This document shows positions 63,561-63,890 of a stretch of 64,000 bases of DNA, in pieces. The number at the start of each line of letters is the position of its first letter. Within the stretch, counting starts at the first letter, position 1. A model generated the notes under the pieces. That model searched no databases and was not told the DNA's origin. It saw only the letters and a list, made by a program, of their open reading frames with translations. Location of the stretch: contig NZ_JARBWD010000001.1 in assembly GCF_030140925.1 (NCBI RefSeq), positions 1,922,001 to 1,986,000 on the forward strand, given 5' to 3'. The translations under genes were made by a program, and so were the position numbers. The stretch comes from Parerythrobacter aestuarii (lineage in GTDB: Bacteria > Pseudomonadota > Alphaproteobacteria > Sphingomonadales > Sphingomonadaceae).

Positions 63561-63890
63561 ATGTCCAGACTGCTTGGTGCCATACTTGGTGCCACCACTT
63601 TGACTGCCGGTTTGGTGGTTCCAGCGCTTCCGGTCTACGCGGCCGACGATGCGCAGACCGAGATCACGGTGTTGGTCAAGACTCTCACTGGCAAGGTTAT
63701 CCCGATCCGCATCACCCCTGGCTCGACAATCTTCCAGGCCAAACAAGCGGTCCTAGCGAAAGAAGGCATCCCGCCGGAGCAGCAGCGGCTTATTTTCGCA
63801 GGCAAGCAGCTGGAGGACGAGCGGACCTTGCGTGACTACAATATCCAGAACGAATCGACTTTGTTCCTGGTCCTGAACCTGAGGGGGTAA
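63561..63890 (+). CDS. Secreted ubiquitin-like protein
   Basis: A 109-residue protein. Residues 1-27 are a signal peptide (cleavage likely after VYA). Residues 35-109 align without gaps to eukaryotic ubiquitin positions 1-75, with about 49 of 75 identical by my own hand alignment to the recalled ubiquitin sequence. Identical blocks include VKTLTGK, KEGIPP, QQRLIFAGKQLED, DYNIQ and ESTL. Lysines equivalent to K6, K11, K27, K33 and K48 are kept; K29 and K63 are Ala and Asn. The Leu8-Ile44-Val70 patch is kept. R72 is Asn, and the C-terminus is LRG with one Gly, not LRGG. GGAGGA lies eight bases before the ATG. The second half looks almost eukaryotic, suggesting ancient transfer. Confidence 0.93.
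   Translation: MSRLLGAILGATTLTAGLVVPALPVYAADDAQTEITVLVKTLTGKVIPIRITPGSTIFQAKQAVLAKEGIPPEQQRLIFAGKQLEDERTLRDYNIQNESTLFLVLNLRG

Follow-up and report, generated by a model that had tools for sequence, protein, structure and literature searches.

Ubiquitin is commonly regarded as an intracellular tag of eukaryotes, and BfUbb, the secreted ubiquitin of Bacteroides fragilis, as an isolated case. According to a later paper, the target of BfUbb is said to be a periplasmic prolyl isomerase. BfUbb is described as a predicted signal sequence followed by a single ubiquitin domain that lacks the terminal glycine, and is found in some strains only (PMC3352274, PMC5705921). Also described are a C-terminal cysteine that forms a disulphide with E1 and inhibition of ubiquitination in HeLa extract (PMC3352274), as well as antagonism of bacteria for B. 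fragilis strains (PMC5705921).

BfUbb is the secreted bacterial ubiquitin that we found in the open-access literature, whose listings, with subscription papers mostly outside their scope, contain no report of a wider set of bacterial exported ubiquitins. No such set appears in the passages found in studies of beta-grasp and ubiquitin-like proteins of prokaryotes (PMC1779556, PMC1949818) or in one of ubiquitin evolution (PMC11354881). Here, we describe a gene of Parerythrobacter aestuarii, located in an analyzed stretch of 64,000 nucleotides (the window), whose product is best read as a bacterially reworked secreted ubiquitin.

The ubiquitin gene and its product

The original prediction described a signal peptide followed by a 75-residue domain with about 49 identities to eukaryotic ubiquitin. 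Alignment of residues 35-109 with human ubiquitin gave exactly 49 identities in 75 gap-free positions, and the signal peptide is likewise predicted by sequence reading (Table 1). The reading frame starts with ATG, which is the first ATG, GTG or TTG codon past the preceding in-frame stop. The Pfam ubiquitin profile PF00240 matches the protein with an E-value of 2.7e-25 (88.4 bits; cut-off, 25.4) and has no match in any of 14 control genomes; the sole NCBIfam match, Rad23, is under its cut-off. Structure modelling, proposed originally as a check, recovered the ubiquitin (beta-grasp) fold. In the AlphaFold2 model, built with 13 sequences, 72 residues have a pLDDT of at least 90 and lie in the ubiquitin part by block means, the preceding region being of low confidence, and Foldseek aligned the model with ubiquitin chains, the TM score reaching 0.97 by target length, e.g., for 5yt6_A with an rmsd of 0.5. 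Matches in the viral structure library were largely viral ubiquitins and polyproteins and were set aside.

The hydrophobic patch is intact, as had been claimed: Leu8, Ile44 and Val70 are all retained, with His68 replaced by Phe and Arg72 by Asn. Five of the seven ubiquitin lysines are kept, and the protein has no cysteine. The chain terminates at Gly75, thus lacking the conjugatable tail formed by Gly75-Gly76 with Arg72; the predicted loss of Gly76 and the Asn at position 72 were both borne out by alignment. The hydropathy peak of the N-terminus is modest, the best 11-residue mean being 1.92; together with sequence reading and the -3/-1 pattern, it leads us to predict that the protein is exported and cleaved after residue 27.

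A region search with residues 1-66 returned one further protein, P0121 (109 aa), for which the source 'lgn' has 10 contigs, the longest of 1,937 bases. Two region searches, seeded with the window protein and with P0121, yielded these two proteins only as members of the lineage. The N-terminal hydropathy peak of P0121 is 2.05, and the counterpart of the predicted cleavage site is VHA/ADD. Both proteins have the ADDAQTE linker, the ..QAKQAVLAKEG helix, Asn72, the LVLNLRG end and a stop after Gly75.

Genomic context

The ubiquitin gene is followed after 4 nt by a DUF805 membrane-protein gene, which encodes 168 aa from its TTG start and has an alternative GTG start at 63940. Judging from the position of a purine-rich motif within the last ubiquitin codons (Table 1), the two genes are likely to be translationally coupled, and they likely form an operon. 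A promoter scan gave no promoter-like sites, and a terminator scan gave two terminator-like sites versus 1.0 (sd 1.1) in shuffled sequences.

Table 1. Features of the ubiquitin locus in the window.
Feature	Position	Strand	Evidence or remark
D-2-hydroxyacid dehydrogenase gene (upstream neighbor, synteny anchor)	62494..63510	+	Pfam PF02826/PF00389
Shine-Dalgarno-like GGAGG	63547..63551	+	9 nt before the ubiquitin-gene ATG; sequence reading
Ubiquitin gene	63561..63890	+	109 aa, predicted secreted; ORF reading, Pfam, alignment
Predicted signal peptide, residues 1-27, cleavage VYA/ADD	63561..63641	+	Arg3, hydrophobic core, Val/Ala at -3/-1
Linker ADDAQTE, residues 28-34	63642..63662	+	Identical in P0121
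Ubiquitin domain, residues 35-109 (ubiquitin 1-75), Asn72, without Gly76	63663..63887	+	Alignment, AlphaFold2, Foldseek
Reworked segment from strand 2 to helix 1 (ubiquitin residues 15-32)	63705..63758	+	12/16 substitutions common with P0121
GAGGGGG within the last ubiquitin codons	63881..63887	+	7 nt ahead of the DUF805 TTG; sequence reading
DUF805 membrane-protein gene, start	63895..64000, on to L002:6401	+	Pfam PF05656, E 3.3e-13

Among the congeneric genomes searched, the dehydrogenase is present in all four (75-82% DNA identity). It is adjoined by what we take to be an ammonium-transporter-like gene in three of them, and by a 136-aa ORF and a homologue of L002:7098-8747 in the fourth. A ubiquitin match was found in none of the four congeners, one of which (G003) is 73% complete, so that one of five genomes of the genus has the gene; the DUF805 gene likewise has no match at E 0.001 in these four genomes, with the same completeness of G003. 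The best congener relatives of the next gene, for an alpha/beta hydrolase, are 40-45% identical and lie at other places. On the second contig (335 kb), a GroEL gene within the first 18 kb has its closest match in the plasmid collection on a Sphingomonas plasmid (82%), which makes the order Sphingomonadales likely. Because ubiquitin and DUF805 were both not found in the congeners and the neighbors of the dehydrogenase differ there, the two genes look like a co-gained pair. Codon adaptation of the ubiquitin gene (0.498) lies below every value from 2000 simulated codings of this peptide, which average 0.664; three small neighboring genes are similarly low (0.462, 0.481 and 0.509), so codon usage is not diagnostic and was dropped as proof of transfer.

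Exported-type ubiquitins in other bacteria

Within the family, a scan at E 0.001 matched three of 397 genomes, the window's own being the sole true one. The other two matches (34-36%) were rejected: the frame of L083 belongs to an unrelated protein, and the scanned strand of L084 has no ubiquitin-like frame, its best score being 40 versus about 290 or more for real ubiquitins. At E 1e-6, the order scan matched one of 396 genomes (the own genome) and the class scan five of 385, with the own genome and one 34% match counted in. A protein search gave at least 7969 matches among 7983 scored candidates; the 120 matches listed consist of the window protein and ubiquitins of at least 148 aa, with no close relative.

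The search of GTDB genome contigs gave 199 stretches that encode a relative, of which the best 80 were analyzed. A signal-like stretch precedes the domain in 68 of these 80 and is lacking in 12, where signal-like denotes a hydropathy cut-off of 1.9 that was chosen after the values had been seen (at 2.0, one or two rows fewer). In six of the 68 the chain stops with the ubiquitin domain, and in 62 it extends further. The Pfam domains found in the best 80 of 199 include Autotransporter (9), Dockerin_1 (9), SLH (5) and IPTL-CTERM (2). The near-eukaryotic ubiquitin of predicted exported type is here the N-terminal module of unrelated surface proteins, e.g., L018, L030, L037 and L053. In L015, L045 and L057, titled as actinobacterial MAGs, a ubiquitin without a clear signal-like stretch is followed by a similar GVVTYQ...ETPP(I/V)L extension in each.

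Many of the records of relatives are metagenome bins and may be misbinned. Fourteen of the best 80 of 199 are strain-named and, as we read the records, not marked as MAG, uncultured or single-cell; they belong to Dyella, Sphingomonas, Rhodobacter, Loktanella, Paenibacillus, Fontibacillus, Cohnella, Conexibacter, Cellulomonas, Pseudohaliea, Leeia and Ruminococcus. Each of these 14 genomes has exactly one ubiquitin match, and 13 of the 14 records pass the signal rule (L062 fails). The original prediction considered such a gene unexpected in an alphaproteobacterium. Its occurrence is indeed sporadic, as the genus and family counts indicate, but it is not isolated, since signal-like ubiquitins also occur in other alphaproteobacteria and in many further bacteria.

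Among the six standalone relatives in the best 80 of 199, five keep the RGG end, and Arg72 is kept in most prokaryotic relatives compared. A by-eye reading of ORF starts noticed neither a DUF805-like gene beside these six relatives nor a partner gene common to them, two Dyella loci apart. In the genus Dyella, that of L006, two of six genomes match, its own included. In the Dyella group, L006, L025 and L110 have the same upstream gene beside the signal-like ubiquitin (60% identity to L006 in L025 and 74% in L110), and in two of the three the chain stops ahead of the RGG tail. The standalone signal-like ubiquitin of Sphingomonas canadensis lies within L023:5023-9819, near genes that we read as flagellar, presumably a sigma factor and a FliE-like gene.

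In all 13 pairs of relatives compared, synonymous change outweighed nonsynonymous change, with dS undefined in two pairs; the Dyella pair L006/L025, which shares a locus, gave a dS of 1.8, near saturation, and a dN of 0.056. As judged from these comparisons of coding sequences, purifying selection acts on the exported-type ubiquitins of other bacteria. Phage records with such a ubiquitin numbered zero, and plasmid carriage was seen in one record, from Ruminococcus albus 7. This mobilizable plasmid, pRUMAL01 (NC_014824.1; L108), encodes a 'ubiquitin family protein' amid hypothetical genes, with a dockerin protein nearby; such genes are thus already annotated, even if undiscussed.

Pattern of change and phylogeny

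Identity between the window protein and P0121 varies along the chain: the signal peptide has 11/27 identical residues, the linker 7/7, ubiquitin residues 1-32 have 23/32 and residues 33-75 have 39/43. Of the 26 differences between the window protein and human ubiquitin, residues 1-32 hold 20 and residues 33-75 hold six (Fisher P 2e-5). Changes common to the two proteins number 16, of which 12 fall in the 18 positions 15-32 and four in the other 55 (Fisher P about 1e-6). Over 73 residues, the window protein has 47 identities to human ubiquitin and P0121 has 49. The 82 prokaryotic domains compared with them (79 of the best 80 relatives and three from the class scan) have 55-72, with a median of 66.

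We considered eleven positions that we take as the Ile44 patch and six that we take as exposed on helix 1. The patch is kept at 9/11 positions in the window protein, where His68Phe and Arg72Asn differ, and at 10/11 in P0121, whereas none of the six helix-1 positions is kept in either. Averaged over the 82 prokaryotic relatives, 0.94 of the patch and 0.76 of the helix-1 surface are conserved, so that in the relatives, too, the helix varies more. Seven changes, Glu16Arg, Glu18Thr, Asp21Ser, Lys29Ala, Gln31Leu, Asp32Ala and Arg72Asn, occur in none of 93 other domains compared, P0121 excepted.

Acquisition directly from a eukaryote had been put forward as the simplest explanation, and the tree does not bear this out. 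L016, L084 and L103, which are too divergent or not ubiquitin, were dropped beforehand. In the FastTree phylogeny of 73 columns, the window protein and P0121 pair with a support of 0.989, and the next two nodes have 0.84-0.85. Column resampling, done also without two rearranged eukaryotic repeats and duplicate rows, recovered the pair in 120/120 replicates and the pair with L037 in 80/120. The nearest neighbor of the pair was L037 in 64/120 replicates and one eukaryotic sequence in 18/120, being most often a bacterial secreted-type ubiquitin; the grouping with L037 may be due to long-branch attraction. The tree thus fixes the pair only and would fit either a eukaryotic or a bacterial donor, and the choice of a donor by phylogeny was dropped because 73 columns hold too little signal.

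Proposed role and alternatives

The original prediction suggested that the protein may be a mimic or inhibitor rather than a tag, which its likely export and the loss of the conjugation tail support. Conjugation is unlikely, given the loss of Gly76, the Asn in place of Arg72, the predicted export and an envelope that offers no ATP to an E1-type reaction, so the protein would act by binding a partner rather than by catalysis. By analogy with BfUbb, we propose tentatively, as a possibility that may well prove wrong, that this non-conjugatable exported ubiquitin is a diffusible, non-covalent antagonist of neighboring bacteria. It would leave the cytoplasm with cleavage of its signal peptide, its retained hydrophobic face would bind another protein outside the cytoplasm, and this binding would antagonize neighboring bacteria; the DUF805 protein may be its partner in export, anchoring or self-protection. 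P0121 is consistent with this proposal, as it keeps the linker, the helix changes, Asn72 and the Gly75 end while the signal peptide has diverged. Several facts speak against it: the protein has no cysteine, unlike BfUbb; no DUF805-like gene was noticed by eye beside the six standalone relatives; the RGG tail of most standalone relatives indicates that tail loss is not general; and the helix-1 surface is more variable in relatives too. Most of the evidence would also suit a housekeeping role or one directed at eukaryotes.

Somewhat doubtful is the housekeeping role, in which a domesticated envelope protein would use the ubiquitin fold as a stable, non-antagonistic periplasmic adaptor with the DUF805 protein. 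The likely operon, neither gene of which was found in congeners, would suit such an adaptor, and the fusion of exported-type ubiquitin to many unrelated surface proteins in other bacteria is what one would expect of a general module. However, one true match in 397 family genomes is unlike a housekeeping part, and no common partner was noticed among the six standalone relatives, two Dyella loci apart.

We consider it unlikely that the protein is directed at eukaryotes, such as protist grazers or algae, where, once taken up, it would occupy proteins that bind or activate ubiquitin. E1 engagement should be weakened by Asn72 and the lack of Gly76, there is no cysteine for a disulphide trap of the BfUbb type, no delivery route was seen, and several helix-1 residues are absent from all of the 93 other domains save P0121. 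These points count against a mimic despite its nearness to eukaryotic ubiquitin, the retention of Leu8, Ile44 and Val70, and the precedent of BfUbb in HeLa extract.

A recently captured gene that is drifting, its function unsettled, would be rare and sporadic and might have the low codon adaptation observed; we regard this as improbable in view of the constraint seen in P0121 over ubiquitin residues 33-75, the intact frame, the Shine-Dalgarno-like site and the similarly low values of the three small neighbors. A functional conjugated tag, of ubiquitin or Bil type, is highly improbable, although the ubiquitin core and most lysines are kept: the protein lacks Gly76 and is predicted to be exported, a scan with PADLOC-DB 2.0.0 matched no families (the library may hold no Bil ubiquitin model), and a search of the genome for E2 enzymes with PF00179 (UQ_con) gave no match, as it did in the 14 control genomes. 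Finally, one genome of the group alone has the gene, but a contaminant or assembly chimera, named originally as a possible refutation, has next to no chance of explaining it, given that the window (G000:C1:1922001-1986000) is interior to a contig of 2,680,612 bases, the genome is rated 100% complete and 0.03% contaminated, and the gene has a signal-like N-terminus and a Shine-Dalgarno-like site. Contamination of the locus is unlikely also because P0121, on contigs from another source, agrees with the window protein in length, linker, helix changes and terminal LVLNLRG.

Alongside the antagonist proposal stands a wider and more speculative one. Exported ubiquitin may be a widespread, overlooked module of several phyla that occurs alone or before surface anchors and is kept by selection; the window protein would then be its most reworked standalone form here, with the tail lost, helix 1 rebuilt and the binding face kept, and would serve as a diffusible antagonist alongside the DUF805 protein. 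The window gene, P0121 and the survey together suggest repeated, non-conjugating bacterial use of exported ubiquitin. Two questions thereby become testable: what the conserved face of ubiquitin binds outside the bacterial cytoplasm, and why a near-eukaryotic form is kept in a place without known ubiquitin machinery.

Comparison with known systems

The Bil and CBASS Cap conjugation systems involve the ubiquitin-like fold, whereas the window protein is predicted to be exported and lacks Gly76. The original prediction held that bacterial ubiquitin-like proteins of the ThiS, MoaD and Bub/BilA types are far more diverged, with which the high identity to human ubiquitin agrees. With eukaryotic ubiquitin it shares the fold, 49 of 75 residues and the Leu8/Ile44/Val70 and Ile36 patches, and it differs by the predicted signal peptide, Asn72, the Gly75 end and the reworked helix 1. 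The signal-like bacterial ubiquitins (among L003-L082, e.g., Sphingomonas canadensis L023 and Dyella L006 and L025) are also predicted to be exported, and six of the best 80 of 199 are standalone as well. In the 82 prokaryotic domains compared, however, 55-72 of 73 residues agree with human ubiquitin, versus 47 in the window protein, and 62 of the best 80 of 199 are signal-like and extended, some of them by surface-anchoring parts.

BfUbb provides the known precedent, as the original prediction recognized, since the window protein, by sequence reading and hydropathy of its N-terminus, fits the architecture of a predicted signal sequence before a single ubiquitin domain, and neither protein has Gly76. 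BfUbb, which is known here by description, ends in a cysteine and is described as glycosylated, whereas the window protein has Asn72, the reworked helix 1 and an adjoining DUF805 gene. Since it lacks a cysteine, the E1 trap of BfUbb does not carry over to it, whereas antagonism of bacteria could. We file the window protein as a variant of the secreted-ubiquitin kind and not as an orthologue of BfUbb.
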